Below the pieces are notes generated by a model. That model saw only the letters and a list, made by a program, of their open reading frames with translations. It ran no database searches and had not been told where the DNA came from. Shown here one piece after another: positions 7,806 through 33,528 of a stretch of DNA of 59,867 nt (within the stretch, counting starts at the first letter, position 1; each line of letters begins with the position of its first letter). Both the position numbers and the translations under genes were made by a program. This DNA is from a virus. The DNA lies in IMG/VR virus record IMGVR_UViG_3300029267_004697, positions 1-59,867 of that record; one strand, 5' to 3'.

Positions 7806-9365
7806 ATGGATGGAATTAGAAAAACAATCTACTATGATATAGTAGATAACTATGGAATTCACCTAGAAATAGTTAAACCTAGAGAAGGCATAGTCAAAAT
7901 GGCTTCTGATATTTCAGACGAGTGTCTGAAACATATTAGCAAGCTGGAGAAAGCGGATACTGATATCACTTATGCCTTGACTAATGCTGTAGGAAGTGGT
8001 GAATACTGGGGATCAAACAAGAACGCCGACTACCTTATAGAAGGGGACTTAGCCGGTGGATCCCTAGACTTCGGCTACCAGACATTTCTAAAAGCTCATG
8101 TTTTTAGGGATCATCTAAACAAAGACCCGAAGTATAAAGTTGGGGATGTTCTCAAAGCATTCTGGAATCCTAGGATGCATAGAGTTGAGCTGCTAATCGG
8201 AATCTACAAACATAGAGCTCCAGAGATAGTGCAAAGACTAAATAACATGGAGACATCCAAGGAGCTGGTTGGTGTTAGTTTCGGACTCACAACTCCTTAT
8301 GAGCAATGTTCCTATTGCGGTAATGTTAACACCACTAGGTCAACTAGATGCTATCATTTAAAATATGAGTTAAACAAAGTTTACTCAGACGGAAGCAAAG
8401 TACAAGCACTAACTTTCAAACCCCTTTTCTATGACATCAGCTTCGTGTGGAACAGGGCTAACAGTGAAGCTCTGGTTCTAGTTAAATTAGCTAGTGTCGA
8501 GCAGAAAGAAGCTATTGTAGAAAAAGAAGTTGTATCACAAAACCCGTCTGTATTAGCTATCTATAAAGATCTAGCTAGAAAGGTTGTGGGCAAGATCGTT
8601 CAGATTGAACCTGATCTTAGCCCTGATGAAATAACAGTTTTAGCTAAGAAGCCGTTGAAAAAAGTGATGGGCTCGCTGACGGCTATGGGTATTATTCTAA
8701 AGCCAGATGAGTTTAAAGCTTTAGTTTCCAAGAAGAAAAATGAGGCTAGTGACATAGCTAAATTCTCTATGGAAGATCTGGATAATGACATTTTTGATTT
8801 AATGCTGCCTCGCTTGCACGACCGTTCTTACTACAGACCGTTTGTGCTTAGCAGAGCAATCGAAAACCAGGATAAACTAAAGAAAACTGCATCTGTAGAT
8901 CTTAATCAGGCAACCCCAGAATTATATAAAATTTATAGAGGACGAATAATCAAAGAGGCGAAATCTAAGAAAACATTTCCTTTATTAGCATTACTAATTG
9001 CTTTAGGAATAGGTGCGTATTACGGTAGGAAAACACTCAAGGAAGTTCCAGAACTAGGTAAATTCCCTCACTTTTTGGAGGCTGGTTCCATCAATCCTAT
9101 CAGCACTGCTGACATCCACAACAAAGCAATGGCAGGCATTGTAGTTCCATCAATACCAGTCAAGTTTAACGAAAGATACAAAGACTTGGTTGCTGGTGTT
9201 CCAGCTGCTTATGTACTATCTGCATACAAAGGTCTTGACTTTTCTGACAAAGACGTACAAAATTTAGCTAAGAATAGCATGGTTTCTTCTGTATATGAAA
9301 CAGAGGAGGCCGCAAAAACAGACGTGAGAATTATAGAGTCAATCTATAAGGAGGACACTAAATGA
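7806..9365 (+). CDS. Capsid maturation (prohead) protease with C-terminal extension
   Basis: The protein has 519 residues. The first 225 look like the head protease of large tailed phages: a conserved AHVFRDH (His103) followed by GVSFG (Ser158), then a Cys/His cluster CSYCG...RCYH typical of this subgroup and likely to bind zinc. Such proteases cut scaffold and internal proteins inside the prohead. The C-terminal half is unusual: it carries KIYRGRIIKEAK, close to the DRIYK tag, and then a membrane-like segment (LLALLIALGIGAYYGRK). The scaffold-like gene overlaps its stop by four bases. The catalytic assignment follows family knowledge and has not been aligned. Confidence 0.8.
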   Translation: MDGIRKTIYYDIVDNYGIHLEIVKPREGIVKMASDISDECLKHISKLEKADTDITYALTNAVGSGEYWGSNKNADYLIEGDLAGGSLDFGYQTFLKAHVFRDHLNKDPKYKVGDVLKAFWNPRMHRVELLIGIYKHRAPEIVQRLNNMETSKELVGVSFGLTTPYEQCSYCGNVNTTRSTRCYHLKYELNKVYSDGSKVQALTFKPLFYDISFVWNRANSEALVLVKLASVEQKEAIVEKEVVSQNPSVLAIYKDLARKVVGKIVQIEPDLSPDEITVLAKKPLKKVMGSLTAMGIILKPDEFKALVSKKKNEASDIAKFSMEDLDNDIFDLMLPRLHDRSYYRPFVLSRAIENQDKLKKTASVDLNQATPELYKIYRGRIIKEAKSKKTFPLLALLIALGIGAYYGRKTLKEVPELGKFPHFLEAGSINPISTADIHNKAMAGIVVPSIPVKFNERYKDLVAGVPAAYVLSAYKGLDFSDKDVQNLAKNSMVSSVYETEEAAKTDVRIIESIYKEDTK

Positions 9366-12769: not shown

Positions 12770-13672
12770 ATGAGTGATATGAATCTTGAGGGTCAGCGAT
12801 TTAATCAATTATTCATTGAGAAAATCCAGACTGCAGATGGACTAACTAAGGTTGCTAACGCAATGAATTCGTTCATCCGCATGAAGGTTCGTGAGCTCGG
12901 CATTGCCAGAAGGGTTATTAACCCCACTTACGTGACCAAAGAGGATCTAAAGCCTAGGACAGACAGTGATACTCTTGAGTACATTGCTGACAAGGAAGTA
13001 GATTCTGATGCTCTCACCGCTTCTTTCGCGGGGACGGTCGAGTACCATAAGATCAAAGGGCAGCGTGTAGCTATCCCTCTTTATCGGATCGCGAGCCAAA
13101 AGTTCAAGATCGCTGAGGAAGAGTTGCTAGCTTACGGATACCCGGTGACTAAGGTGGTCGAAGAGAACTCGCTGAAAGATATTTACAAGCGGGAAGACGA
13201 GAAGCTGGTTACGTTAGCTGATGCAGCTACAGCCTCCACTGGGAACCAGAATCTGGCTCTTGGTGCTGGGATGACCAAAGCTAAGCTGATGTCTGTTATG
13301 AAAATGATGATCCAGGACGAAGAGTCTGGATCTCCTATCATGGTTCTGATGCATGAAGCTGCTTGGGCAGACATGGTTGCTACTGATGCTACGGCTATCG
13401 GTGACGATCTGGCTAAGGAAAACCTGATTAATGGTTATCCTTACACAACCGTCTTCGGGAAACGCCTTGTGCTTACCCGGAAGACTTCTGTGATCGCTGA
13501 GGACACGTTCTATTGCTTCGGAGCTGAGGAGTGGCTAGGATATTTCTTGCTGCTTGGAGACGTGAAATTCTTCATTAAGACTGAACATGGTGACATTGAG
13601 TTTGGTACTAGAGAAACTGTTGGAATGAGTCTAGTGAATGTGCATAGTGTTGCTAAAGGAAAACTTGCATAG
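12770..13672 (+). CDS. Major capsid protein
   Basis: A 300-residue protein with the HK97-fold layout: a helical N-arm, then IPLYRIASQKFKI, a Glu/Lys-rich spine region, an A-domain containing MKMMIQDEESGSP, and a C-terminal GDVKFFIKTEHGDIEFG strand region. It is preceded by a strong AAAGGAGAAGG site and followed by a strong terminator, and lies after protease, scaffold and decoration genes, the canonical order. The fold assignment is by pattern and context. Confidence 0.85.
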   Translation: MSDMNLEGQRFNQLFIEKIQTADGLTKVANAMNSFIRMKVRELGIARRVINPTYVTKEDLKPRTDSDTLEYIADKEVDSDALTASFAGTVEYHKIKGQRVAIPLYRIASQKFKIAEEELLAYGYPVTKVVEENSLKDIYKREDEKLVTLADAATASTGNQNLALGAGMTKAKLMSVMKMMIQDEESGSPIMVLMHEAAWADMVATDATAIGDDLAKENLINGYPYTTVFGKRLVLTRKTSVIAEDTFYCFGAEEWLGYFLLLGDVKFFIKTEHGDIEFGTRETVGMSLVNVHSVAKGKLA

Positions 13673-13744: not shown

Positions 13745-13774
13745 AACTTATAAGAACTATGGAAGGGGGGAATT

Positions 13775-14526: not shown

Positions 14527-14567
14527 GTGAAATCCTCCTTCTTAAAAGTAGTCTTATAACTAGTATA

Positions 14568-14613: not shown

Positions 14614-14627
14614 TCCTAGTAAAGTTG

Positions 14628-14701: not shown

Positions 14702-14702
14702 G

Positions 14703-14816
14703 TTAGTTCCGGTTTCTTTTCTTCCAGCAGCTATACTCCTTTGTACTAGCAAACGCAAGGGCAAAGATAAATAGCACTATAATCCCTACTAGTATAGCTG
14801 CGATTTTAGATATCAT
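14703..14816 (-). CDS. Very small membrane protein
   Basis: A 37-residue frame starting MISKIAAILVGIIVLFIFAL and ending in a basic tail (CWKKRNRN). One membrane span with a basic end. The ribosome binding site (AAGGTGA) is weak and somewhat distant. It fills the space between the tRNA-Ala gene and the next gene. Confidence 0.5.
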   Translation of the reverse strand: MISKIAAILVGIIVLFIFALAFASTKEYSCWKKRNRN

Positions 14817-14894
14817 AACTAGAAAATTCACCTTATTCTACTAAGTATACTATTAACCGATACTATTATAGTATAAGGTATTGCTTCAATAGTT

Positions 14895-15251: not shown

Positions 15252-16384
15252 ATCCTCCCGATTAAGACATTATAGATTATCTTACTATTTTCTCTACCAA
15301 ACTCATCTCCCATAGACCGCATTATTTCTCTCTTATTATTCTCCATAGTCCAGCCGTGCTCCTGCTCTAGTTGATTAAGCAGAGAGAAAGCATTTTCCTT
15401 TATCCTCTTTCGATTATTAACAAAGGAGATGCACCTTCTGATTAAGTCCTCATTTTCATTAACTTGACCTTCATCCCACTCTTCTAGTAATAGAGGCTTG
15501 AGATTATCATAGTTAAGCTCATCGTGATCCTCAAAGACATTCCAGCACGTAGCTATAATAGAATTCTTTCCCATTCTCCGACCAGCAGCGAAGTGAATGG
15601 CTTCGATAGTTTCTGGCTTAGCTTTAAACTGCCAGCATCTATTAGATAGATCAGTAACATACCAGACCTGCCCTTCTTGACCTTCATATGTATCTTCATC
15701 TAGCTTATTGAGATGAGTCTCCATTTCCTGCCTATGCTTATTGTACTCGCTCTCTAATTTAGCCTTGGAATCTATAACAGTTTCTAATCGAGGAATCGGC
15801 AGCTCTTTAGCAGCATCTATTTTCTCAGGGATAATAACTAGACCATCTTGGTTAACTCCGAATAGCATAGCTACATCCAAGTCTACCTCATATTTGATCA
15901 AATGAGTATTTCTATGACCGTATAGCTCATAGCTGATAGATAAGCCACTCTTGCTAGCTATATCTTTAATCATAGGATACTTCTCCAGCATCTCAAGCCA
16001 CATGCTGTAGAATGGGCGGTGAGTCATGGTGAAAGGGAGCAATCTAGTCTTATAGGAAGTAAACTGCTTGCTCTCATGATAATACGTATATTGAAGGATG
16101 TTAGTTCCATCCAGCTTCTCGTAGACCCTTACATTTTTAGCTGGAGGAAAATCATAGTTACCTTTTTTGTCAAACGGGTACTCTTGTTTGGGTGTTCCGT
16201 AAATCTTTTGGTCAGTCTCTTTACCATTAATAGCAACTAAGTAAAGCATCCCATAAGTGGACTTTCCTGTTTTGTGAATAAACCCAGCTAAGGTGTTCTC
16301 AGGGTTAAACGGGTCCTTCTCTTTGAAAGCTCCCCAGTTTTTATTAAGTCCTAGATCTTTTTTTGCTTCAACTAAATCTATCAT
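15248..16384 (-). CDS. RNA ligase
   Basis: A 378-residue nucleotidyltransferase that joins RNA ends through a ligase-adenylate step. Motif I is KLDGTN, with Lys90 as the expected adenylated residue; SYELYG fits motif III, EGQVWY motif IV and QFKAK motif V. About 120 C-terminal residues form a separate helical domain. Phage RNA ligases often repair host or phage tRNAs cut by defence nucleases, and this gene lies in the same leftward operon as five tRNA genes. DNA ligase is unlikely because the OB-fold is not evident and the motif pattern is of the RNA ligase kind. Confidence 0.85.
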   Translation of the reverse strand: MIDLVEAKKDLGLNKNWGAFKEKDPFNPENTLAGFIHKTGKSTYGMLYLVAINGKETDQKIYGTPKQEYPFDKKGNYDFPPAKNVRVYEKLDGTNILQYTYYHESKQFTSYKTRLLPFTMTHRPFYSMWLEMLEKYPMIKDIASKSGLSISYELYGHRNTHLIKYEVDLDVAMLFGVNQDGLVIIPEKIDAAKELPIPRLETVIDSKAKLESEYNKHRQEMETHLNKLDEDTYEGQEGQVWYVTDLSNRCWQFKAKPETIEAIHFAAGRRMGKNSIIATCWNVFEDHDELNYDNLKPLLLEEWDEGQVNENEDLIRRCISFVNNRKRIKENAFSLLNQLEQEHGWTMENNKREIMRSMGDEFGRENSKIIYNVLIGRI

Positions 16385-21228: not shown

Positions 21229-21486
21229 TTATTTCCCCTTAAATTTACGATACCATTCTCGTTTTTTGGGATCTTCGCTGTTTTTTAATTCACCAAACCA
21301 TGTTTTCCCGTCTTTGTTAAACCCATACACATCAGATACTTCGTTTAGCTGTATAGGGAGCTCCTTATCTCTACGCAAGTTTTCTTTTCCTTTCCTTCTG
21401 AATGTTCTATTGGCTAGCCTCTTGTCTTCCTTATCAGAAGCAGCACAAATTCCACAATAATCGTTTTTCCTTCTTGATTTACCCAT
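21229..21486 (-). CDS. Small basic hypothetical protein
   Basis: An 85-residue, Lys/Arg-rich protein starting MGKSRRKNDYCGICAAS. The CGIC pair may bind metal. The start overlaps the end of the next upstream gene by eight bases. No family recognised. Confidence 0.65.
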   Translation of the reverse strand: MGKSRRKNDYCGICAASDKEDKRLANRTFRRKGKENLRRDKELPIQLNEVSDVYGFNKDGKTWFGELKNSEDPKKREWYRKFKGK

Positions 21487-21724
21487 TAAACCTCTTCTCC
21501 ATTAACTTTTTACCTGTCTTAGCACACACCCACTCTCCACACCATTGATCCTCAGGTTCTATAATAATTGGCCAATCAGCCACAATACTTTCACCGACAT
21601 TAGACATAACTTTTCCTGGATACCGTTTACAAATACAGTTACCTCTGTCATTGGCGTCACCCTCAGCTCCACAACCATAAAGACAAGTTTTACAGTTGAT
21701 TTGTTTGCTAGGCAGTTTAACCAT
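21479..21724 (-). CDS. Small Cys-rich protein
   Basis: An 81-residue protein with eight Cys residues (CKTCLYGCG, CICKR, WCGEWVC), suggesting a metal-binding fold. I place the start at 21724, behind AAAAGGAGGAAG; reading further upstream would translate the tRNA-Leu gene. Confidence 0.7.
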   Translation of the reverse strand: MVKLPSKQINCKTCLYGCGAEGDANDRGNCICKRYPGKVMSNVGESIVADWPIIIEPEDQWCGEWVCAKTGKKLMEKRFNG

Positions 21725-21742
21725 TTTTCTTCCTCCTTTTGT

Positions 21743-21826
21743 TGGTAGGGGAGACAGGAATCGAACCTGCATGCCGAAGCACTAGCTCCTAAGGCTAGCG
21801 TGTCTGCCTAGTTCCACCACTCCCCC
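21743..21826 (-). tRNA. tRNA-Leu (anticodon TAG)
   Basis: Class II tRNA with a long variable arm (TGCTTCGGCA), anticodon arm CTAGC-CTTAGGA-GCTAG and encoded CCA. It reads CUA, a leucine codon used very often in the core genes of this phage. Confidence 0.93.
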
Positions 21827-21835
21827 CTAGTTATT

Positions 21836-22048
21836 TTACGTTTCTGATTCTAAGCAAGCATACAGTCTCCTAACCCCAACTCCATCATAGTGCAAAGGTG
21901 TAGGCTTATTAGGAAACGATTCACTGAAGTAATATCTGAACAACTCACAAGTAGGGTTACCAAAGTTATCAGAGGCTAGATAAGGACAAGTAGAATCACA
22001 ATATTGCTTATCTACTAATACCGTAACTTTTAAACTCTTCTTCTCCAT
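21836..22048 (-). CDS. Small Cys-containing hypothetical protein
   Basis: A 70-residue protein with CDSTCPYL, CELF and CLES, a possible metal site. It is the first gene of the leftward operon, with the promoter element at 22107 upstream. Similar small Cys proteins are common in phage but have no known role. Confidence 0.65.
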   Translation of the reverse strand: MEKKSLKVTVLVDKQYCDSTCPYLASDNFGNPTCELFRYYFSESFPNKPTPLHYDGVGVRRLYACLESET

Positions 22049-22106
22049 AGTTACTTCTATTTTGGATTAATATCTTTATTTTGTCAATAAAGAGACTAGC
22101 TCCAAT

Positions 22107-22115
22107 CTTATACCA
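22107..22115 (-). promoter_or_regulatory. TGGTATAAG promoter for the leftward tRNA/RNA ligase operon
   Basis: TGGTATAAG on the minus strand, 59 bases upstream of the first leftward gene. Confidence 0.6.
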
Positions 22116-22121
22116 CTTTCT

Positions 22122-22149
22122 TTGCAAAATCTAGTTTATATGCTATAAT
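22122..22149 (+). promoter_or_regulatory. Sigma-70-type promoter
   Basis: TTGCAA and TATAAT separated by 16 bases, reading rightward. It lies back to back with the leftward TGGTATAAG element and would use the host RNA polymerase. Confidence 0.65.
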
Positions 22150-22155
22150 TATAAG

Positions 22156-22236
22156 GAGACTGACGTGTTTTCTCCAAAGTCTCTTTCTTTCCTCCTTCCG
22201 GGAGCGGTCCTAGTCAGCTAGGACCGCTTCTCTTTT
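22156..22236 (+). ncRNA. Short transcript ending at a terminator
   Basis: Between the promoter at 22122 and the terminator at 22204 is about 80 bases without a gene. GAGACT and AGTCTC can pair as a first hairpin, and the terminator is the second. It may be a small RNA or an attenuated leader for the genes from 22296. Confidence 0.45.
22204..22236 (+). terminator. Intrinsic terminator
   Basis: GCGGTCCTAG pairs with CTAGGACCGC, loop TCAG, followed by a T-rich run. Confidence 0.85.
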
Positions 22237-22238
22237 TA

Positions 22239-22247
22239 AGGTATAAG
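22239..22247 (+). promoter_or_regulatory. AGGTATAAG promoter element
   Basis: A one-base variant of TGGTATAAG, right after a terminator and about 49 bases ahead of the gene at 22296. Confidence 0.5.
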
Positions 22248-22295
22248 ATAATAAATGAAATCTTATTAACGTTATTAACTAAGGAGGGTAAAACA

Positions 22296-22469
22296 ATGGT
22301 TAGGTACCAGCTTAAAATCACTAAGTGTAGGGAGCCGGTAAAGTGCTCCATTTGCAAGAAGCTCATCAATAAGGGCGAGCTTCATGAAGCGTGGTATTGT
22401 GGCTATTGCAAAGAGTGGGCTAACCACTTGAGATGTCAAAAGCCTAGAAAGGAGCATAACAATGTCTAA
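22296..22469 (+). CDS. Small zinc-ribbon protein
   Basis: A 57-residue protein with CSIC and CGYC placed as a zinc ribbon (KCSICKKLINKG...WYCGYCKEW). AAGGAGGG is upstream. Its stop overlaps the next start by eight bases. Confidence 0.75.
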   Translation: MVRYQLKITKCREPVKCSICKKLINKGELHEAWYCGYCKEWANHLRCQKPRKEHNNV

Positions 22470-22830
22470 TCTTTGGTACTATTATCTCCATCAAGATGGG
22501 TCGTTAATAGGGAAAAATCCAGCAGTAGTAGAGCATGATGATCAGTACTTTAATAGTCCTTTTGTAAAGAAGGTTTGGATGATCGATTTAACTAAGCGAG
22601 AAGATGCTTGGACTTTAGTGCTTGAGGCCCTAGCCCTTGGAGCCTCACTCGATCGAGCTAAAGAACTAGCTGAAAAGTGGAAACTAACTTATGAAGATTC
22701 TTTTGAAATGCTCTCACGGGTTAAGCCTACAGGTGAGATGAAAGAAGGAATGAAAATAATGATAGAGAAGATTTTTAAAGTGGACATTGACCAATATTGG
22801 GAAAGCGTTTTAGAGAAGCAAAAAAAATGA
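22462..22830 (+). CDS. Hypothetical protein
   Basis: A 122-residue mostly helical protein starting MSNLWYYYLHQDGSLIG. AAAGGAG lies upstream within the previous gene. A helix-turn-helix-like stretch (SLDRAKELAEKWKLTYED) is possible but weak. Ten bases later the tRNA-Arg begins. Confidence 0.7.
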   Translation: MSNLWYYYLHQDGSLIGKNPAVVEHDDQYFNSPFVKKVWMIDLTKREDAWTLVLEALALGASLDRAKELAEKWKLTYEDSFEMLSRVKPTGEMKEGMKIMIEKIFKVDIDQYWESVLEKQKK

Positions 22831-22839
22831 GGAATAAGT

Positions 22840-22916
22840 GCGTCTGTAGCTCAGCTGGACAGAGCAACGGACTTCTAATCCGTAGGCCGCAGGTTCGAGT
22901 CCTGCCAGGCGTGCCA
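22840..22916 (+). tRNA. tRNA-Arg (anticodon TCT)
   Basis: Cloverleaf with anticodon arm ACGGA-CTTCTAA-TCCGT and T arm GCAGG-TTCGAGT-CCTGC; ends GCCA with CCA encoded. It reads AGA/AGG, which the core genes use heavily. Confidence 0.93.
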
Positions 22917-22935
22917 CTAAGAAAGGAGATCAAAA

Positions 22936-23187
22936 GTGACCAAGGTAAAAATATCTGATTTAAGGAGAGAGATGATTGAAGGTGTCTTTAAATGTCCTAA
23001 ATGCGGGAGAGAGATTTCTGAGGAAAACGAGCTACTAGTTAGTGGAATCCACGAAGTATGGGTCTCGGCCACGCTTAGTGAATCCGGAGTTTATTCAGTA
23101 TCTGAACCAGCTGTTTATTCAGACGATTACGGAGTACACGACGAACCCGAAGAAGTGGTGGTGCAAGGATGTAATGAGTGTGTTTAA
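22936..23187 (+). CDS. Small zinc-binding protein
   Basis: An 83-residue protein starting at GTG behind AAAGGAG. CPKCG at residue 20 and CNEC near the end form a likely zinc site around an acidic beta-rich middle. Function unknown. Confidence 0.65.
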   Translation: MTKVKISDLRREMIEGVFKCPKCGREISEENELLVSGIHEVWVSATLSESGVYSVSEPAVYSDDYGVHDEPEEVVVQGCNECV

Positions 23188-23248
23188 CTTAAGATAATTT
23201 GAATTGAGACAAGGAAGTAATACCAAGAAATAAGGAAAGGAGAACAAA

Positions 23249-23503
23249 ATGTACAGGGTAGTAAAAACAGACGAAAAGGTTATATGGGGGAAGAAGGAGG
23301 ATGTTGATTGTGTTGTTGTTAGCCCAGCCATTACCCTTGCTGACGAGTTTGGGGGGAGAGCCCAGATCATTGTTGACGATCAGTGCTACGTTCTTCTTCT
23401 CAAGCAACATCAGGCGGAGAATTACAACCACACCGCTTGGTGGTTCAAGGAGGCAGTTGAGGCAATTAGGGGATTGGAAACCATCTCTCTAACCAGTCAA
23501 TAG
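23249..23503 (+). CDS. Small hypothetical protein
   Basis: An 84-residue protein beginning MYRVVKTDEKVIWGKKEDVD, with a strong AAAGGAGAAC site. Single domain of mixed fold, no recognised family. It is the last gene before a terminator. Confidence 0.65.
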   Translation: MYRVVKTDEKVIWGKKEDVDCVVVSPAITLADEFGGRAQIIVDDQCYVLLLKQHQAENYNHTAWWFKEAVEAIRGLETISLTSQ

Positions 23504-23530
23504 ACTGTGGGAATTAAGCTGCCTTTATAA

Positions 23531-23559
23531 GGAGTAGCTTCTACTACTCCTTTTTTTTT
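23531..23559 (+). terminator. Intrinsic terminator
   Basis: GGAGTAG pairs with CTACTCC and is followed by nine T. Confidence 0.9.
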
Positions 23560-23599
23560 AGCTTATCTTATGCTAAGATTAAAAGGGAGAATTGTATCT

Positions 23600-24010
23600 A
23601 TGACTAGAACCCAAGCAGTTAATCGTTTAAGAGAATTTATTAGGGATAAGAAGGAGTTAAACCGTCTTCTTCAAAATGACTATGAGAATGACCCTAGTCA
23701 ACTACAGCTGGCTTTGGATATGGCTGTAGATGATTTTAACACAACCCCACCTAGCATAGGAGGTTGTTCCTTAGAGTCATTTCCTAGTGACTATCTACTT
23801 ATTATAGGGGCTACAATCTCCCTTCTAGAATCAGCGGGAGTACTTCAGTCCAGGAATAGATTAAACTATGCTGATGGTGGATTAGCTATCTCAGTATCAG
23901 ATAAAGCTGAGGAGTATTCCAACTGGCTGAAAATGTTCATAAACGATTATGAAAATAAGAAGATTAGATATAAACAGTCACAAAACCTAGAATCTTGTTG
24001 GAGTATATAA
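23600..24010 (+). CDS. Neck/connector-like structural protein
   Basis: A 136-residue protein. I prefer the ATG at 23600, behind AAAGGGAGA, to the earlier ATG at 23570, which has no binding site. The C-terminal half (RLNYADGGLAISVSDK, then a helical end) resembles small head-tail joining proteins of large phages. The stop overlaps the next start (TAATG). The family call is tentative. Confidence 0.6.
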   Translation: MTRTQAVNRLREFIRDKKELNRLLQNDYENDPSQLQLALDMAVDDFNTTPPSIGGCSLESFPSDYLLIIGATISLLESAGVLQSRNRLNYADGGLAISVSDKAEEYSNWLKMFINDYENKKIRYKQSQNLESCWSI

Positions 24011-25065
24011 TGAATCGAAGCAGAATCTATAAAATAGCTGAAAACATTCTACTAGAAAACCCTCAAGCTTCTAAGGCCGATGCCACTATCAAGCAAAACC
24101 AGGAAACTGGGGGAATGATTAAGAAGTATAGAATAGGTGGGGCCTTGAACATCTATGATGAGAAGTTTGGTGATGTTCCTAGTAATGCTTATGATTATAG
24201 GGCTGCTTCCAGGGTAGCTGAAGCTAAAGCTATCTTGCAGCCAGACGGTCAAACTGGAGAGAGGATTAAATCTAATTTCAAGGGATTAGTCGATATGTTT
24301 GATCTTACTAAGAATCCAACAGCTGATCCTAGAAAGCATCAAAAGATAAATGAAGCTATAAACGCACTCAAGGAGTACAACTTGACTAAAGGTGCTTCTA
24401 CAAATGATACTAGAAGTAAAAAGGAAAAGCGCAGCGACAGACTAGAAACTGCCGTTGGAGTAGCCGGGTTACTCGGTTTAGCTGGATTAGGCATCTTTGG
24501 TGCTAGGAAGTACCATAAGTTCCTCCGCCAAGCTAGCAAACGTGAGCAGCAGTGGGGGCAGGCTTATGAGGAACGTAGTCGAAAAGCGAAGGAAGAGTGG
24601 AGAAGAAGGACGCAGGAGTGGGAACGGGAACGAGCACACAGAAGAGCGCAACAAGAAAGCCGCGGAAGAGCACAGGAAGAAAGCGATAGAAAATTTTGGG
24701 AAGACCTGGGTTCGTGGTCTAGAGGCGAGAGTTACACTGGAGGCGGGAGTTATACTGGAGGCGGGAGTGAATCCCACAAAGCCTGGGAGGACTGGTGGAG
24801 ATCAGCGAAGGATGTTGCTGGTTCAGAAAAAGCTAAAAAGACAGTAGGATTTGATCCAGAGCAGTTTACTAGAGAAGAAATCAAAAGAAGAAAGCGTGAT
24901 TTAATGAAACGTTATCATCCAGACTGGAATCCTAATGTCGACCCCAACAAGATGAAAGATATAAATGCTGCCTGGGATGTTTTAAGACGCACTGGAATGA
25001 CTAAAGGTGCTTCTACTTCTGATAAAATCTATTATAGAGCTTATTCGTTGCTAACTAAAAAATAA
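24010..25065 (+). CDS. Tagged membrane-segment protein with a C-terminal J-domain
   Basis: The 351-residue protein has, in order: an N-terminal tag (MNRSRIYKIAENIL), a hydrophobic segment (GLLGLAGLGIFGARK) near residue 150, a long Arg/Glu-rich helix, two Y-T-G-G-G-S repeats, and a J-domain with the HPD tripeptide near residue 303 (LMKRYHPDWNPN). It ends in a second tag-like stretch (SDKIYYRAYSLLTKK). J-domains stimulate Hsp70 ATPase, so the protein may recruit host DnaK. The tag and its structural-gene neighbours suggest it is packaged in the virion; that is inference. Confidence 0.82.
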   Translation: MNRSRIYKIAENILLENPQASKADATIKQNQETGGMIKKYRIGGALNIYDEKFGDVPSNAYDYRAASRVAEAKAILQPDGQTGERIKSNFKGLVDMFDLTKNPTADPRKHQKINEAINALKEYNLTKGASTNDTRSKKEKRSDRLETAVGVAGLLGLAGLGIFGARKYHKFLRQASKREQQWGQAYEERSRKAKEEWRRRTQEWERERAHRRAQQESRGRAQEESDRKFWEDLGSWSRGESYTGGGSYTGGGSESHKAWEDWWRSAKDVAGSEKAKKTVGFDPEQFTREEIKRRKRDLMKRYHPDWNPNVDPNKMKDINAAWDVLRRTGMTKGASTSDKIYYRAYSLLTKK

Positions 25066-25067
25066 AT

Positions 25068-25850
25068 ATGGATAAAATAGCTAGAGAAAACATTTTAAAA
25101 AAAATAGCAAAAACACGATGGATAAGAGAGATTTCAAAGTTGTCTCCAAAAAATCAAAAACGATTAATTGTTAATCTAACTGGAAGATCGAGATTTTTGA
25201 AGGAGCTAGGCCGAGGAAGCGAAGGCTTTACTCAAGTGCAGGTAACTCCTAGACTTGGTTTTACTGTTAAAAAAAGATATTTTCCGCTTTCAAAATGGGT
25301 GGGTACTGTCCCAAAGAAAGAAGTCGCTTATAGAGATTTACCTATGGAATTAAAGCAGCATATAACGAAGCGTTATAAAACAAAATTTGGGGTAGTTCCA
25401 TCAGAACTTAATGAATATGTAAAGGGAAGGCCATTGAAAGTTGAACAAACATCTTTGCCAGTTATACGTTTAGGCGGGCAAGGATCATATACCCCAGCTA
25501 CGTATGGTGGTCCAGATGCAAAGTTGTATGAAAGATTAACTAAAAAATTTGAAAAAACGAATATAGGTGATCTTGGCCCTCAGAATATTCTGGTCGCAGG
25601 TAAAAAGCCAAAGGTTATTGATTTTGTAAATAAGTCTATTCCTGCTTCATACGAGCGTCTTGGAAGGGGTAGCATAAAAGGTCCAATAAGATCATTTCTA
25701 CTTAATGGCCCTGCACCCCTAGTTAATAATATTTTATCAAGATGGGAAGCAACTGGTAAATTCCCAAGAAAATTATTCTTAGAATCTATGAAGAAAAGTA
25801 AAGCATCTGGTGCTGAAGTTTTAGAAAAAACTCCAACAGGATTATTGTAG
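25068..25850 (+). CDS. Tagged protein-kinase-like protein
   Basis: A 260-residue protein starting MDKIARENILKKIAK, the second tag type. LGRGSEGF at residues 47-54 looks like a kinase Gly-rich loop, GFTVKKRY supplies a possible ATP-binding Lys, DLGPQNILV (Asp168, Asn173) fits the catalytic loop of APH/Bud32-like kinases and VIDF (Asp185) the metal-binding Asp. The usual His before the catalytic Asp is Gly here. It follows the J-domain gene by two bases. Substrate unknown; it may also be an inactive fold. Confidence 0.6.
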   Translation: MDKIARENILKKIAKTRWIREISKLSPKNQKRLIVNLTGRSRFLKELGRGSEGFTQVQVTPRLGFTVKKRYFPLSKWVGTVPKKEVAYRDLPMELKQHITKRYKTKFGVVPSELNEYVKGRPLKVEQTSLPVIRLGGQGSYTPATYGGPDAKLYERLTKKFEKTNIGDLGPQNILVAGKKPKVIDFVNKSIPASYERLGRGSIKGPIRSFLLNGPAPLVNNILSRWEATGKFPRKLFLESMKKSKASGAEVLEKTPTGLL

Positions 25851-25901
25851 TAGGCATAACTAAACCATGGTCCTTTTTGACTCATTACTAACTAAAAAAT
25901 A

Positions 25902-26666
25902 ATGTTAGAAATTACAGATGTTGATGTCTTCCCTGACTTTGGTCACGATTACAATATAATCAGCTGGGTGGTAGCTCCTACTACGCAGTCAATAGATAAT
26001 TTCCGTCTAGACATACAAAGAGCTTACTCACCTGAGGACACATTTGTCACTATAGGTCAAGGAACATCTGACACTATTACTTTTACTGATTCTGATGTTT
26101 ATCTAAACGACAGATTCAGAAAATACTATTATAGGCTGCATGTCACCGACTTAACAACCCTAGAAGAACTAGATACAGACCCGTCTTACTCAAGCTATGA
26201 GTGGAATGCTTATTCTGCAGAAATAGCTAGGAGAGAGAACCTTCTACTAGAAACTTACATTAACTGTCCAGTTAAGTTTCTAGTCAGAAAGACTGAGGGT
26301 GAGTACTGTGATTGCTTCGATCCACTGAAACGAAGAGTTAAGACTAGCAGCTGCAGTGGATGTTATGGAACCGGCTTCCGTGGAGGTTTTTATAACCCTA
26401 TTGATGGTTATATAGGATCCGTGCCTAAGACTGAAGCAATTAGAATAGTAGTTGGCTTAGAAATGACTTCCACCGATCCAGTATTTTGGACTAGTAACAG
26501 TTTGAAGCTATCACCAGATGACATTATAGTGGACACAAAGTCTAATGAAAGATTCAGGGTGGTTAGAATAGAAACTACTTCAATGGAGGGTTACCCTCTC
26601 AGGCAAACTCTAGTTTGTCACCAAATTAAGCTTAGCGACATAGAGTACAGAATTCCTACTACTTAA
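25902..26666 (+). CDS. Neck/tail-completion-like structural protein with Cys cluster
   Basis: A 254-residue protein. Residues 1-100 look like a fibronectin-III-type beta domain. The second part has CDCFDPLKRR and SCSGCYGTGFRGG, a zinc-binding pattern seen in head-tail connector proteins of large phages. It ends in overlap with a leftward gene. Placement among connector and tail genes supports a structural role. Confidence 0.6.
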   Translation: MLEITDVDVFPDFGHDYNIISWVVAPTTQSIDNFRLDIQRAYSPEDTFVTIGQGTSDTITFTDSDVYLNDRFRKYYYRLHVTDLTTLEELDTDPSYSSYEWNAYSAEIARRENLLLETYINCPVKFLVRKTEGEYCDCFDPLKRRVKTSSCSGCYGTGFRGGFYNPIDGYIGSVPKTEAIRIVVGLEMTSTDPVFWTSNSLKLSPDDIIVDTKSNERFRVVRIETTSMEGYPLRQTLVCHQIKLSDIEYRIPTT

Positions 26667-26901
26667 AAGTCTTTAGTATTTCGGATGCTTTATTATAGAG
26701 GTAATCTTCTTCAGCTTTCTTGGGCAGTTTAGCTCCGTTTTCCCTAGCTTTGTTATAAGCGATAGCACTAGCGATCTCTTGAGCATGACTAGTGCTTTTA
26801 GGGTTAGTGCTACCTATACTCCCTGAACGCTTATACTTTTCCATCATCTCTTTAATGTTCTTGCTAATTGTTTTCTTTGACTTACCTTCTTGCAGTGGCA
26901 C
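26659..26901 (-). CDS. Small basic protein with C-terminal tag
   Basis: An 80-residue protein whose middle (STSHAQEIASAIAYNKAREN) matches a widespread family of small basic phage proteins of unknown role. The C-terminus, EDYLYNKASEILKTFK, is a version of the DRIYK tag. AGGAGAAG precedes the ATG. It is the only leftward gene in this block. Confidence 0.7.
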   Translation of the reverse strand: MPLQEGKSKKTISKNIKEMMEKYKRSGSIGSTNPKSTSHAQEIASAIAYNKARENGAKLPKKAEEDYLYNKASEILKTFK

Positions 26902-26974
26902 TTATTCTTCTCCTTTAGTATCCTATTACTATGAGTAGTATAACATTAACTAGTGTTTCGATCAATGATTTTTC

Positions 26975-26983
26975 TGGTATAAG
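26975..26983 (+). promoter_or_regulatory. TGGTATAAG promoter for the KH/RNA-array operon
   Basis: TCTGGTATAAG, 46 bases before the first gene of the operon that runs to the terminator at 29348. Confidence 0.6.
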
Positions 26984-27028
26984 CAATTTGTCTTCTCAAG
27001 GATTTTTATAGTGAAAGGAGAAAGGTAG

Positions 27029-27361
27029 ATGTCAGATGATTTAAAGAGGTATGCCGGGGGTTGTATTATTCGCATGATAAAAGACGGAAAATCTCCAGAT
27101 GAGATTGATCCAGATGAGATTAACAAGATTCTCAAAGGTAAATTTTCTAAAACTATTGCCGATCATGAAATCGCAGAAATTGTAGCTGATATAGCATCTA
27201 GGTCTGAATCCAGTCATAAACCGAAACAAGTAAGTGGAGGAGGAAGTAAAGTAAGCCCAATTGAAAAGTTGGCTAAGTACCTTAAAGATAAAGGGTATGA
27301 TGCCGTTATTGTATATAGTAGCGGAAAGGCTAATTTTTGGGTTAAACCTAACAAGGACTAG
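27029..27361 (+). CDS. Hypothetical protein, first gene of the KH/RNA operon
   Basis: A 110-residue protein: helical first half, a Gly/Ser linker near residue 73, then a small compact part (LKDKGYDAVIVYSSGKANFW). Strong AAAGGAGAAAGG site. No family recognised. Confidence 0.75.
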   Translation: MSDDLKRYAGGCIIRMIKDGKSPDEIDPDEINKILKGKFSKTIADHEIAEIVADIASRSESSHKPKQVSGGGSKVSPIEKLAKYLKDKGYDAVIVYSSGKANFWVKPNKD

Positions 27362-27364
27362 ATA

Positions 27365-27760
27365 ATGTTTGATGACCCAAAGGCTGTCTTAGAAATAAGT
27401 AAAGACAGTGTCAATATCTACAAGGGCACTGAAGGTACCATCGTAGGAAATAGTTCCATTCTTTTTCTAGACAAGCGAGAAGCTAAAATTAAAGGTAAGC
27501 TAGTAAAGCTCTCGGAAAATGATTATCAATACCTAGTTAACAATCGACTAGACGATGAGGAACTAGAACTAACTAAGATAATCAAAAGGATAGAAACAGT
27601 GTGGAACAGAGTAGGAGACTTAATCAAAGTCCCTACGAGCGCAAGGCAGCTAGTTCCTGTGTTAGAAAGGCACGGTTTACTAGCTAATACTAAAACCTCA
27701 GGAAATGAGGCATTTGTAGGATATGAGAAAGTAGTGAAATTTCTTAGAATGAACGAGTGA
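27365..27760 (+). CDS. Hypothetical protein
   Basis: A 131-residue protein, beta-rich at first, then helical, with a possible winged-helix-like end (RQLVPVLERHGLL...GYEKVVKFLRM). It follows the previous gene by three bases. Function unknown. Confidence 0.7.
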   Translation: MFDDPKAVLEISKDSVNIYKGTEGTIVGNSSILFLDKREAKIKGKLVKLSENDYQYLVNNRLDDEELELTKIIKRIETVWNRVGDLIKVPTSARQLVPVLERHGLLANTKTSGNEAFVGYEKVVKFLRMNE

Positions 27761-27769
27761 GGTAAGCAT

Positions 27770-27979
27770 ATGATCAAATTGTACCTCGGTTTCTTAGAGG
27801 GTCAGGACGGTTATGGGTACCCGCACATAATTGTGTATGATCATAAAGCTGATGAGTCATACAACTATGTCGGGAAAACGTTACCATTTGCAGATGTATT
27901 CAGGGCGATGCTCGCTAGGGAAGAAGAAGACATGAGAGGATTCCTAGCAAGACTAATCGAGGAGGAAAGGAAAAGATGA
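27770..27979 (+). CDS. Small hypothetical protein
   Basis: A 69-residue protein starting MIKLYLGFLEGQDG with a helical, charged C-terminus. Its last codons overlap the KH gene by four bases, which suggests translational coupling. Confidence 0.7.
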   Translation: MIKLYLGFLEGQDGYGYPHIIVYDHKADESYNYVGKTLPFADVFRAMLAREEEDMRGFLARLIEEERKR

Positions 27980-28239
27980 AAGAATGGTTAACAAACACGG
28001 TTAAGCAGTTAGTAGGTGAAGAAAATGCTAAGCTAGTGGTAGTTGAAGAGTTAGAAGGGAAGGAAATGTCAGTTATATTTGTCAGGGGACCTAGGGAAGT
28101 CCTAGGAATCGTTATTGGCAAAGGAGGCAGAACAGCTGGAGCCATCAGAACTATTCTTAATATTGCCTCTAGGCAGAGCGGTAAAAGATATATGCTAAAT
28201 ATTAGCCATAACACGGATACTAACGTTAAGGAAGAGTAA
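27976..28239 (+). CDS. KhpA-like KH-domain RNA-binding protein
   Basis: An 87-residue single-KH protein. IVIGKGGRTAGAIRTIL holds the GxxG RNA-binding loop (GKGG, residues 48-51), and the end KRYMLNI forms the last strand; size and layout match bacterial KhpA. KhpA proteins bind many small RNAs and transcripts. The stop codon lies six bases before the first of six structured RNA elements, on the same operon, so a shared function is likely but unproven. Confidence 0.88.
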   Translation: MKEWLTNTVKQLVGEENAKLVVVEELEGKEMSVIFVRGPREVLGIVIGKGGRTAGAIRTILNIASRQSGKRYMLNISHNTDTNVKEE

Positions 28240-28244
28240 TCCAC

Positions 28245-28409
28245 CAAAGCTTGCAGAAAGCTAGTTTATCCCTAGCAGATCTAAGAAAGTAGAAGGTGTA
28301 ATGATGCTTCTTTTCTGGGACCTGCCCTGGCGGCTAACGGGCCAACCGGCTCCGCGCCGCCGCCAGGCGCTGAGCCCAGAAAACGCACATTAATCAGTTA
28401 GAAGCTTTG
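28245..28409 (+). ncRNA. RNA array, element 1
   Basis: Closed by CAAAGCTT and AAGCTTTG. Inside are GCA, a small hairpin (GCTAG...CTAGC), an A-rich AGA strand, then a large GC-rich arm (TTTTCTGGG with CCCAGAAAA, CTGGCGGC with GCCGCCAG) and TTAG before the closing strand. Confidence 0.75.
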
Positions 28410-28445
28410 CAACTTAGCGTTTAGTTGGTTATATTCTAATTATTT

Positions 28446-28651
28446 ATCAAAGCTTGCAATAAGCTTACGAATAGTAAGCAGAAATAAGAAAAACCAACAT
28501 ATAACTGATGAGCAAACCGTTCAAACCAGGTTAGACTTCACCTCGGGAACTCAGTCGGAGATGTCCTTAAGAACATCTCCAGACGGGAGTTCCTCGTGAA
28601 GAACCACCTGGTGAACGCCTTTGCCCACAGCTATTAGTAAGAAGCTTTGAT
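28446..28651 (+). ncRNA. RNA array, element 2
   Basis: Closed by ATCAAAGCTT and AAGCTTTGAT. Small hairpin GCTTAC...GTAAGC, then CAGAAATAAG, then a long arm with nested stems GCAAA/TTTGC, CTTCAC/GTGAAG and GGAGATGT/ACATCTCC. Confidence 0.8.
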
Positions 28652-28673
28652 TCACAATGTAATTTATAATTAC

Positions 28674-28824
28674 TATAAAAGCTTGCGTAATCCAGTTCAG
28701 AAATGGACAGAAGTAAATAAAACTCGAGTAAGAAGACCATAGTTATATACGCCAAAGGACAGTTTTACAACGTCCAACGGCGTATAAACTAATGTTCTTC
28801 TTAGTTCAGATAGAAGCTTTTATA
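28674..28824 (+). ncRNA. RNA array, element 3
   Basis: Closed by an 11-pair stem TATAAAAGCTT and AAGCTTTTATA. Small hairpin TCCA...TGGA, then CAGAAGTAAA, then TAAGAAGA/TCTTCTTA, TATACGCC/GGCGTATA and GGAC/GTCC stacked in one arm; CAGATAG precedes the closing strand. Confidence 0.82.
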
Positions 28825-28834
28825 GGGTAGATAA

Positions 28835-29053
28835 AATAAAGCTTGCAAAAAGCCAGAAATACTGGCAGAAAAGAAACAAATAGGCAAGAGGTGCCTAAAC
28901 ACTAGATGACCTGACGACGTCAGCTGGCGAGGCTCCCTACTCAGATTTTTAGTCCAGGGACAAATCCTCTGGACATAAAAACAGAGACTAGAGCCTACGC
29001 CCTGCTGACCCGCAGCTCATCTGAGCCACCTCAACCCAGATAGAAGCTTTATT
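28835..29053 (+). ncRNA. RNA array, element 4
   Basis: Closed by AATAAAGCTT and AAGCTTTATT. Small hairpin GCCAG...CTGGC, then AGAAAAGAAAC, a GGCA/TGCC hairpin, AGATGA/TCATCT and an inner GTCCAG/CTGGAC hairpin; CAGATAG precedes the closing strand. The longest element. Confidence 0.8.
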
Positions 29054-29067
29054 TCTAAAGACATCAC

Positions 29068-29198
29068 TTCATAGCTTGCATTTACTTAGATTACTAAGTG
29101 AAAAGAAAGTACTACACGATAGCAGGAAGGCAGGCAAGGAGAGACACTGTTCACCTCCCTTACCTGCCTTCCAGATATGCCTAGATAGAAGCTATGAA
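29068..29198 (+). ncRNA. RNA array, element 5
   Basis: Closed by TTCATAGCTT and AAGCTATGAA; the base changes relative to elements 1-4 keep every pair. Small hairpin ACTTAG...CTAAGT, then GAAAAGAAA, then GGAAGGCAGG/CCTGCCTTCC; TAGATAG precedes the closing strand. The shortest element. Confidence 0.82.
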
Positions 29199-29206
29199 TC
29201 ACTGTT

Positions 29207-29346
29207 TAAATGGTTTGCTTTTTCCTAGAAAACTAGGGGGTGTAAAACAAACAGCTACACTTGAAATGATGAAGCCCAACCCTTGCACCGACGCCGGTTA
29301 CAGGGTTGGGCTACAATTCCATTTCAAAACAGATAGAAACCATTTA
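29207..29346 (+). ncRNA. RNA array, element 6
   Basis: Closed by TAAATGGTTT and AAACCATTTA, again changed in sequence yet fully paired. Small hairpin CCTAG...CTAGG, then TTGAAATG/CATTTCAA and GCCCAACCC/GGGTTGGGC in one arm; CAGATAG precedes the closing strand. Confidence 0.82.
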
Positions 29347-29347
29347 G

Positions 29348-29375
29348 GAGGGTAGTACATATACCCTCTTTTTTT
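29348..29375 (+). terminator. Terminator of the KH/RNA-array operon
   Basis: GAGGGTA pairs with TACCCTC, followed by seven T, two bases after element 6. Confidence 0.9.
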
Positions 29376-29408
29376 GACAAATTTTACACTTTATTGTAAT
29401 CTTTTAAT

Positions 29409-29858
29409 ATGGATCCAGACAATATAGCTGCAGACTCTGTCAAGGACAGAATTCTGCACAAGGTGGCAGAACAACTTTTAGTAGAGCTAAAACATCAGCT
29501 ATACTTGACTAATCTCAATAATAAGGATAAAATATATGAATCCTTTTCCGTCGATGTCAATAGCCCCGCTGGGAAAATAAACGTTAGTAGCAGCTTCAAA
29601 CCTGTTAAGTACTTAAATTCTGGTACAAAGCCTCATACTCTGATGGCATTAATTGGCAGGACAGTACCAATAAAAACACCCGCTGGTGTGCTTTTTAGAA
29701 CAGTAACCTGGGAACAAATAATAACTGGAAAATGGTTCCACTCAGGGATAAAAGGAAAGCATTTTATAGATGTAGCCATAGAAAACACTAAGAAGGATGT
29801 TCCTAGAATTATAAAAGAAGAGATGAGGAGATTCAATGAAGAAACTTCCGCAAGATGA
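29409..29858 (+). CDS. Tail-completion-like protein (HK97 gp10 type) with tag-like start
   Basis: A 149-residue protein. YLNSGTKPHTL, then KWFHSGIKGKHFID and a helical end, follow the pattern of HK97-gp10-like tail completion proteins (GTKPH...HPG-K...F). The N-terminus has DSVKDRILHKVAEQLL, similar to the DRIYK tag. No clear binding site precedes the ATG; the operon terminator is 34 bases upstream. Confidence 0.65.
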   Translation: MDPDNIAADSVKDRILHKVAEQLLVELKHQLYLTNLNNKDKIYESFSVDVNSPAGKINVSSSFKPVKYLNSGTKPHTLMALIGRTVPIKTPAGVLFRTVTWEQIITGKWFHSGIKGKHFIDVAIENTKKDVPRIIKEEMRRFNEETSAR

Positions 29859-29934
29859 GATAACCATCGCTAAAAAACTAAAAAATCTAGTCAAGAAGAA
29901 ACTCAAAAGCTTGAAAGATCAAGAAAAAGATTAA
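29836..29934 (+). CDS. Very small basic protein
   Basis: A 32-residue Lys-rich frame starting MKKLPQDEITIAKKLKNL, behind GATGAGGAG. It overlaps the previous gene's end and stops directly before the helicase ATG, so it may mainly couple their translation. Confidence 0.45.
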   Translation: MKKLPQDEITIAKKLKNLVKKKLKSLKDQEKD

Positions 29935-31581
29935 ATGATAGAATTAAGTTACTGCTTTGATAAAGGCAGGTGGATCATAGCTATTTTTGGGTATGATCCT
30001 AAAACGGTGAAGTTTATCAAGGATAATTTCTATCCGGCTTTATTCAAAAAAGAATACAAATGTTGGTATATTCCCTTCAATATAGATAACTACAAGAAAT
30101 TATTTAAGAAATTTGGCAATAGCTTGCATATAGATGAACTTTTAATTGAGAAGGTTAGGCAAGAGAACTCAAAGATTAAGCTCCACGACAAAGAGCAGGT
30201 TGAAATAGATGTGCCTGGGTTTGACTTGTGGCCTTTCCAAACTGTAGGTGTTAAATTCCTACTAGACTCAGGCGGGAGGGCTATACTAGCTGCAGATATG
30301 GGTAGCGGAAAGAGTATCCAGACTTTAGCTTATATGTCTATAACTAAACCTTTTCGAACTCTGATAGTCTGCCCCTCGTCAGTGAAATTCAACTGGAAGC
30401 GGGAAATAAATAGGTGGCTGAAAGAACAACCGGTCATAGTCGAAGCTTCTTCACCAAAAACTGTGAAGGAAGCTAAAGCTGTGCTCAACCACGGCGGTAT
30501 AATCATAGTAAATTATGAGTCTGTCAAGAAACTAGACACAGGAAGAGTGGAACTTCTAGTTTTAGATGAACATCACTTAGTCAAAACTAGGACTGCCAGC
30601 AGAACTATAGAAGTTGGCAAAGTAGCAAAGAAAGCGGACCACATAATCTGTTTGTCGGGTACTCCTATGCCTAATCGCCCAAACGAGTTATTTGGAGTAT
30701 TAAAAATGATAGATGGGGCTAACTGGTTCAGCTTCGTCAATTATGCTACTAAGTATTGTGCTGGTCATTATCAATACTTTTATAGAAAGAAGGTATTCAG
30801 GTCTGATGGGGCATCTAATCTAGAGGAATTAAAAGAGAAGCTTAAGCCTTATATGATTCGCTTCGAGAAAAAGGATGTGCTTAAAGATCTTCCGGAGCTG
30901 AGGAGAGATAATCTAGAAGTGCAGCTTGATAACTATGATGACTACAAAGAGGAAGAAGAGGCTCTAGTTGCTGAAATAAAGAACAGCAAAGACTCTATTT
31001 CCAGCATGATCAATCAAGTGAAATCAGATGAAACCATACCTCTACTAGTTAAAATAGACAGATTACAAGAACTTACAGCTAATCTTAAGGTTAGCCCAGT
31101 GTGTAAATGGACTAAAGATTTCTTATCTATATCTGATAATAAACTAGTTATCTTTGCTAGGCATATAAGCGTAGTAAACTCTCTCAGAGATGAACTGTCT
31201 AAATTTACTCAGGTAGAGGCAATCACAGGAGAAACGCCTGTTCCTGAGAGAGAGAATCTAATTAACGACTTTATGGCTGATCCTGAGCTTAGGGTTCTAG
31301 TGTTATCTAGAGTAGGGACACTCGGGATCAACTTAACTAACGCTTCAACGGCTGTGTTTATGGAAAGAGATTGGTCTTTAGCTAACGAGGAGCAAGCCGA
31401 AGCCAGACTACATCGTCCGGGGCAAGAAAATCCTGTCATGATTTGGTATGCTTTTGCCCCTGGGACTATAGATGTCAATTTTGCAAACTTGCTCGAAGAA
31501 AAGAAGCATGTAATAAACAAAGTTATGAATAGAAACCAATTTTATAGTTTGCTGGTAACAAGCTTGATTGAAAGGAGTTAA
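29935..31581 (+). CDS. SNF2-type DNA helicase/translocase
   Basis: A 548-residue superfamily 2 ATPase. Residues 1-85 form a small N-terminal domain as in HARP-like SNF2 proteins. Motif I is DMGSGKS, motif II LDEHH (a DEAH-box variant), motif III SGTPMPN, and the C-terminal RecA domain has LSRVGTLGINLTNA and EARLHRPGQ. It would move along duplex DNA or remodel forks. Phage relatives act in replication, recombination or transcription. It sits just before the sigma factor gene. Confidence 0.93.
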   Translation: MIELSYCFDKGRWIIAIFGYDPKTVKFIKDNFYPALFKKEYKCWYIPFNIDNYKKLFKKFGNSLHIDELLIEKVRQENSKIKLHDKEQVEIDVPGFDLWPFQTVGVKFLLDSGGRAILAADMGSGKSIQTLAYMSITKPFRTLIVCPSSVKFNWKREINRWLKEQPVIVEASSPKTVKEAKAVLNHGGIIIVNYESVKKLDTGRVELLVLDEHHLVKTRTASRTIEVGKVAKKADHIICLSGTPMPNRPNELFGVLKMIDGANWFSFVNYATKYCAGHYQYFYRKKVFRSDGASNLEELKEKLKPYMIRFEKKDVLKDLPELRRDNLEVQLDNYDDYKEEEEALVAEIKNSKDSISSMINQVKSDETIPLLVKIDRLQELTANLKVSPVCKWTKDFLSISDNKLVIFARHISVVNSLRDELSKFTQVEAITGETPVPERENLINDFMADPELRVLVLSRVGTLGINLTNASTAVFMERDWSLANEEQAEARLHRPGQENPVMIWYAFAPGTIDVNFANLLEEKKHVINKVMNRNQFYSLLVTSLIERS

Positions 31582-32696: not shown

Positions 32697-32718
32697 ATCA
32701 AAAAGGAAGGGAGGGGAA

Positions 32719-33528
32719 ATGTGTAAATTTTTCAGTTGTGACTCAGATGGTGATGGGAATTTACTATATTTTGATTGGGAGTTGAGAAAAAAGATATTGT
32801 CTGGGGAGATAAAGCAGTACGAACCAGACAGCCATACCTCAATAGCTCACTGGTTTGGGTTCGAGGGTGAGGAAGAGGATGTACTAAATAAATACGAATA
32901 CAATCCCTTGACGAAGAAGTTTGTAATAGATCAGCTTAATGATACTATGGATGATTCTATCATAGTAAAAGAGAAGCTGGATAATTTTGATTGGAAAACA
33001 ATTGTAGAGCCGTTAATCATTAAGCCAATTATTCATCCATTCGAGATGGATGCACCCGAAATTACTCCAGAAATAGTTGATTTAGTAAAAAAGTGGGCTT
33101 CGGTCAGGGATTCGATCAGGTATTCGGTCTGGCATTCGGTTGGGGCTTCGGTCAAGGCTTCGACCAGGGATTCGGTCGGGCATTCGGTCAAGGCTTCGAT
33201 CAGGAATTCGGTCGGGGATTCGGTATGGGCTTCGGCCTGGGATTCGGTCTGGCATTCGGTTTGGAATTCGGTCGGGGAGTCGGTCTGGTATTCGGTCGGG
33301 GTTCCGGCCCGGAAGTCGATCAGGCATTCGGTTTGGAATTCGGTCGGGGATTCGACCGGGAATTCGATCGGGGCTTACTTTTCATCTTTCTTTGATATTG
33401 ATTACAAACACGATCTGTCTCCTGCAATCAAATTGTGGGAAATGGGATTAGTTCCGTCCTACGACGGGGAAGTATGGAGGCTGCACGGTAAGCCAAACGG
33501 TAAGGTATTATGGGAAGGGACAATCTAA
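32719..33528 (+). CDS. SV-repeat protein (paralogue 1)
   Basis: A 269-residue protein starting MCKFFSCDSDG behind GGGAGGGG; an earlier ATG in the same frame lies inside the sigma gene and is not used. After a conserved N-domain, residues about 128-216 are tandem four-residue units of the type x-S-V-x (WDSVWHSVWNSVGESV), coded by near-identical 12-base repeats. A conserved C-terminus (LHGKPNGKVLWEG) follows. The regular Ser/Val spacing suggests a solenoid. A close relative lies at 37566. Function unknown. Confidence 0.8.
   Translation: MCKFFSCDSDGDGNLLYFDWELRKKILSGEIKQYEPDSHTSIAHWFGFEGEEEDVLNKYEYNPLTKKFVIDQLNDTMDDSIIVKEKLDNFDWKTIVEPLIIKPIIHPFEMDAPEITPEIVDLVKKWASVRDSIRYSVWHSVGASVKASTRDSVGHSVKASIRNSVGDSVWASAWDSVWHSVWNSVGESVWYSVGVPARKSIRHSVWNSVGDSTGNSIGAYFSSFFDIDYKHDLSPAIKLWEMGLVPSYDGEVWRLHGKPNGKVLWEGTI

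Follow-up and report, generated by a model that had tools for sequence, protein, structure and literature searches.

The open reading frame at 24010-25065 of the window, i.e., the complete 59,867-nucleotide stretch of viral DNA analyzed here, is probably a gene of a large tailed phage for a head-internal cargo protein, which would be packaged by means of short tags, trimmed by the maturation protease, and ejected together with the DNA, and whose J-domain would recruit DnaK of the host. What appears from the sequence to be new is that a J-domain protein of class C is combined with a signal resembling capsid-targeting peptides and new in sequence. Little is understood of the way in which phage proteins packed in the head unfold, travel through the tail, and gain activity inside the host; if the proposed reading is true, the phage delivers a ready-made handle on host DnaK at the moment of entry, and a head-packaged co-chaperone would connect the Hsp70 machinery of the host with phage entry. 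The coordinates of the relevant features are collected in Table 1.

Table 1. Features of the J-domain gene, its neighbors, and the head genes carrying the same motif (positions in the window)
Feature	Coordinates	Strand	Basis
Head maturation protease, N-terminus GIVKMA	7806..9365	+	phrog_18299 E 1.6e-6
Major capsid protein, N-arm LTKVA	12770..13672	+	phrog_2522 E 2e-18; alignments; phage gp27 6wkk E 4e-7
Neck-region gene 1, conserved	23570..24010	+	33%/31% identity to Arash/D69 homologues; in 35/47 relatives
J-domain head-cargo protein (putative), 351 aa	24010..25065	+	ORF; PF00226 E 7.4e-9
N-terminal tag SRIYKIA, residues 4-10, LxKxA class	24019..24039	+	Motif list; 18 nt same as 11020 gene tag DNA
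LTKGA, residues 125-129, predicted maturation-protease site	24382..24396	+	Matches capsid N-arm motif GL[TV]K[VE]A; 19-bp repeat
Gly-rich membrane-like segment, residues ~144-166	24439..24507	+	Hydropathy; inside predicted long helix
J-domain, residues 284-326	24859..24987	+	PF00226; PDB J-domain matches; HPD at 24916-24924
MTKGA, residues 330-334, predicted maturation-protease site just past J helix III	24997..25011	+	19-bp repeat
C-terminal tag DKIYYRAYSLLTKK, residues 338-351	25021..25062	+	Compare J-protein of relative G008, ending NTYLEKIASSY
Second tagged cargo gene (putative), N-terminus MDKIARENILKKIA, kinase-like motifs (tentative)	25068..25850	+	Motifs; TCAD9 E 0.0022, below cut-off
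Neck-region gene 2, conserved	25902..26666	+	Adjoins gene 1 directly in Arash and D69

The gene begins with an ATG at 24010, ends with a stop codon at 25063-25065, and encodes 351 residues. Since its start codon shares bases with the stop codon of the neck gene upstream and 2 bp separate its own stop from the next gene, it is a member of a compact operon. PF00226 is the sole Pfam family in the protein (E up to 1) and was assigned to residues 284-326 with an E value of 7.4e-9 and 36 bits, compared with a curated cut-off of 27.8. A phmmer search against PDB sequences matched the J-domains of DNAJA1, DnaJ 2, and others (E 7.5e-6 to 1e-2). The HPD tripeptide is intact at residues 303-305, helix II is basic (EIKRRKRDLMKRYHPDW), and the alignments with the PDB matches show that this helix retains the basic KRRKRDLMKRYHPD pattern. 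Three of the features by which J-domain proteins of class C/III are recognized, namely significant homology, an HPD between helices II and III, and a basic helix II, are present, whereas the layout of DnaJ classes A and B, in which a G/F region follows an N-terminal J-domain and is accompanied by a zinc finger and/or C-terminal substrate domains, is not, the J-domain being C-terminal and PF00226 standing alone. With the whole 351-residue protein as query, tblastn against 50,697 phage records gave no match.

AlphaFold2 was run on residues 130-351 with one sequence only as input and produced a low-confidence model. The helices at residues 288-302 and 312-327 flank the HPD loop in a J-domain-like manner, but the pLDDT is approximately 46 there, and a Foldseek search with this low-confidence model gave no match. 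A long helix is predicted at residues 136-238, with pLDDT values mostly above 70 and exceeding 90 in its middle; it encloses the membrane-like segment, which reaches a best 19-residue hydropathy of 1.84 and precedes the J-domain. The initial annotation had described a C-terminal J-domain with intact HPD, a membrane-like segment, and tags at both ends; all three were recovered here, the last as IYKIA at residue 6 and as MTKGA at residue 330 followed by the C-terminal SDKIYYRAYSLLTKK.

The tags are instances of a single motif, [L/I/M]xKxA (a hydrophobic residue followed by xKxA), of which the J-protein contains three copies, starting at residues 6 (IYKIA), 125 (LTKGA), and 330 (MTKGA). Its two TKGAST copies form a perfect 19-bp direct DNA repeat, with 0.02 expected by chance, and its tag DNA has 18 identical bases in common with the tag DNA of the gene at 11020; the tags therefore probably move between genes and within genes. 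Between the terminase and capsid protein genes the motif reaches 12.0 copies per 1000 aa versus 1.5 in the other genes of the window (p 1e-11), i.e., it is about eight times denser there, and the 16 head-region genes hold 36 motifs compared with 7.7 in shuffled sequences (0 of 1000 shuffles reached that count). Among relatives, alignment placed the K and the A of the motif in every capsid-protein N-arm inspected, and the N-terminal motif of the protease aligns in Salmonella phage Arash and Vibrio phage D69. The presence of the motif in both the capsid protein and the protease suggests that the motif of the tags is also the one used by the maturation protease; LxKxA could also bind the scaffold without being cut.

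In loci related through the capsid protein of the window (L037-L083 and L130-L177), the motif becomes an N-terminal peptide of the NKYLEKIA type, which occurs on 94 distinct proteins from 51 unrelated families at 60 loci. Because one short peptide is found on so many unrelated proteins, it is best read, from its distribution, as a transplantable targeting signal. Some of the tagged bodies resemble KptA/ADP-ribosyltransferases, SNF2 helicases, or glycine-zipper membrane proteins, as expected for delivered enzymes such as T4 Alt, which supports the assignment as head cargo. The largest tagged family has a YHGTS...G stretch similar to ART/KptA. Searches of papers for the NKYLEKIA string, with most subscription journals outside their coverage, found none. 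The tag would provide a sequence-only route to listing the internal, probably ejected proteins of this large-phage lineage, and it might serve as a peptide with which marker proteins are loaded into the capsids of these phages.

By analogy, the tag looks like the capsid-targeting and maturation signal of the T4 internal proteins. The capsid-targeting peptides of these proteins are common to unrelated proteins and fit the motif of the maturation protease (PMC5694885); in T4 (IPs, Alt) as in the relatives studied here, one short N-terminal peptide is carried by unrelated proteins, and the cargo includes ART-like enzymes. The first of these properties was recovered in the 94 proteins and 51 families described above; for the second, the motif lies in the capsid N-arm, where cleavage is predicted only. 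The T4 consensus ending (L/I)xE is replaced by LxKxA: the sites of T4 and the giant phages end in glutamate, whereas in our case the tag can also be C-terminal and packaging is a prediction. The ejection proteins of the giant phages SPN3US and phiKZ offer a further parallel, as they form a head-packaged set in which some members have membrane helices and some are cut by the prohead protease; in the accessible portions of the two reports, no member with a J-domain is mentioned, and the protease specificity is different (PMC5694885, PMC10052503).

The J-gene lies between two genes that are called neck genes here because they follow the capsid gene. In Arash and D69, these two genes are directly adjacent and there is no J-domain gene. 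A scan with the capsid-protein alignment gathered 47 further relatives, across which the gap between the neck genes is a variable slot: it is empty in several, holds a 90-residue protein starting with MNKYLEKIA in four, an 8.6-kb insertion of fiber-like and other genes in one (L110, G031 21400-31400), and a J-domain protein in one (G008). Scans for close relatives yielded the near-identical, overlapping contig G001 only, and a host scan of genome contigs returned two short MAG contigs and no usable host. The "virion-type" label given to the protein in the initial annotation is supported, as a head protein, by the tags and the synteny, that is, by context.

This arrangement bears on an alternative that we consider unlikely, namely that the protein is an assembly factor, brought into the prohead by its tag, which recruits DnaK in the producing cell for the folding or release of head or neck parts and is then left in the capsid or expelled from it. 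Its translational coupling between two neck genes makes late production, at the time of assembly, probable, and the tags mark probable prohead components; yet a slot that is empty or occupied by unrelated tagged proteins in relatives does not behave as a needed part of the neck, and the tags otherwise occur on enzyme-like or membrane-protein-like sequences. We favor a role at entry over one in assembly because the tag class resembles the capsid-targeting signals of ejected internal proteins.

Downstream of the J-gene, the putative second cargo protein contains the kinase-like motifs LGRGSEGF and GPQNILV...KVIDF. Its assignment as a kinase was kept as tentative only, given the weak Pfam score, the lack of a match among PDB sequences, and the absence of BLAST similarity to the J-plus-kinase-like protein of relative G045. 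AlphaFold2 gave a low-confidence model for it.

The domain architecture of the J-protein repeats in two relatives, G008 and G005, despite J-domain scores below the Pfam gathering cut-off in both. The G008 protein (185 aa) has NKYLEKIA near its N-terminus, Gly-rich segments, a J-domain, and a C-terminal NTYLEKIASSY, and this doubly tagged protein occupies the slot between the same two neck genes as in the window. The G005 protein (634 aa) consists of an N-terminal NKYLEKIA, a HELGH motif, a Gly-zipper, and a C-terminal J-domain, and its gene adjoins RNA polymerase genes. The two proteins otherwise differ in sequence. In all three J-proteins (window, G008, and G005), the HPD is located 43 to 48 residues from the end and [LIMF]xKxA follows helix III. 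Tagged J-proteins turned up in no more than 2 of the 63 relatives (a large share of these being fragments), and their function is therefore optional. Two further proteins of approximately 352 residues (G045, L092 183-1241; G054, L178 646-1704) have a J-like N-terminus with HPD and kinase-like motifs; as they are without head tags, they were dropped as candidates for head cargo.

That phage J-domain proteins are rare, as the initial annotation had stated, does not hold as such, given that a J-domain query with a permissive threshold matched 41 phage records (some of these contigs look bacterial) and that Rki of the T4-related phage RB43 has been characterized experimentally. What stands is that the virion context is unusual. 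The inspected phage J-genes with annotated neighbors sit among DNA-metabolism, chaperone/Clp, or unassigned genes, and it is for this reason that the unusual feature of the present protein is its virion context and not the occurrence of a J-domain in a phage. Paper searches, with most subscription journals outside their coverage, found no head-packaged phage J-protein. The best phage J-domain match was in Nitratidesulfovibrio phage SRB7757 (L014 9920-10993, E 3e-4). The start of that protein, MKSFKEYISEA, presumably resembles a T4-type capsid-targeting peptide, which we take as a lead only; its J-domain is N-terminal, unlike ours, and only two proteins of that phage start in this way. Moraphages encode both DnaJ and DnaK (PMC12619734).

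Rki is, like the protein described here, a phage-encoded type III J-protein with an HPD, and host DnaK is the expected target of both; Rki binds DnaK through its J-domain and stabilizes sigma-32 (PMC3486835). DnaJ, in turn, is required for the sensing of phages by bNACHT25 (PMC12169576). Both observations lend some weight to a second alternative, in which the delivered J-domain titrates or misdirects DnaK/DnaJ, stabilizing sigma-32 or blinding DnaJ-dependent sensing, with no role at the membrane or in entry, and the motif after the J-domain could serve to free it. We nevertheless rate this as quite unlikely: a membrane segment is unnecessary for such a role, Rki is made early and not packaged, and the delivery step is common to this alternative and to our preferred explanation. 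Rki moreover has an N-terminal J-domain (H38) and is expressed early, whereas in our protein the J-domain is C-terminal and is combined with a membrane segment, head-type tags, and a gene position in the neck operon. That the protein is a structural decoration, external or tail associated, with LxKxA as a mere scaffold or neck interaction motif and a J-like fold lacking chaperone function, would fit the gene position between neck genes and the diverged J-domains of G008 and G005, but is very improbable in view of the basic KRRKRDLMKRYHPD pattern retained in helix II and of tagged proteins that are otherwise unlike decoration proteins.

According to the preferred reading as ejected head cargo, the J-protein would be made together with the neck proteins, and the LxKxA-class signal (SRIYKIA here, NKYLEKIA in relatives) would draw it into the prohead alongside many unrelated cargo proteins. 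The maturation protease, probably recognizing the same motif in the capsid N-arm and in itself, would trim the J-protein at, or close to, LTKGA|ST (residue 129) and MTKGA|ST (residue 334), leaving a product that retains the J-domain together with the membrane segment and the long charged helix. When a cell is infected, this product would be ejected with the genome and lodge in the inner membrane, where the HPD-containing J-domain would bring in DnaK of the host and activate it where entry takes place. The recruited DnaK might assist in folding co-ejected proteins or in pulling them in, or it might be diverted from the first minute. A search of four records revealed no phage-encoded Hsp70.

Sec63 and Pam18/Tim14 are membrane-tethered J-proteins that recruit Hsp70 at a membrane, and the order of a membrane segment followed by a J-domain, as in Sec63 and Pam18, is also present in our protein. 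It differs from them in being viral, in having no homology beyond the J-domain (Pfam PF00226 only, E up to 1), and in having no known translocation channel as a partner. By extension of this analogy, the ejected, membrane-anchored J-protein might act like Pam18 or Sec63, with DnaK as an Hsp70 motor at the inner side of the entry channel that pulls or refolds proteins and perhaps DNA, and the LxKxA/NKYLEKIA code might define the ejected proteome of the lineage; we regard this extended proposal as speculative and on balance doubtful.

Several further features of the window and of the overlapping contig were recorded. The complementary strand encodes, at 44720-45316, a tagged (MKDRIYKQA, LEKEA), metalloprotease-like protein with a HELGH motif, which is also found in the G005 J-protein, and, at 26659-26901, a DUF6496-like protein (E 0.001, below the cut-off) with the C-terminal tag DYLYNKASEILKTFK. 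The large terminase gene (3687-5720) contains an intein (PF14890, E 1.9e-15, residues 59-221). A duplicated gene pair at 32701-33518 and 37550-38350 is 79% identical, and a tandemly repetitive stretch (35044-35616) lies between the two copies. Upstream of the window, positions 10063-16143 of G001 encode a protein of 2026 residues, the homologues of which (25-33% identity) are divided between two genes both in Arash and in D69; one of the Arash homologues is annotated as RNA polymerase beta.
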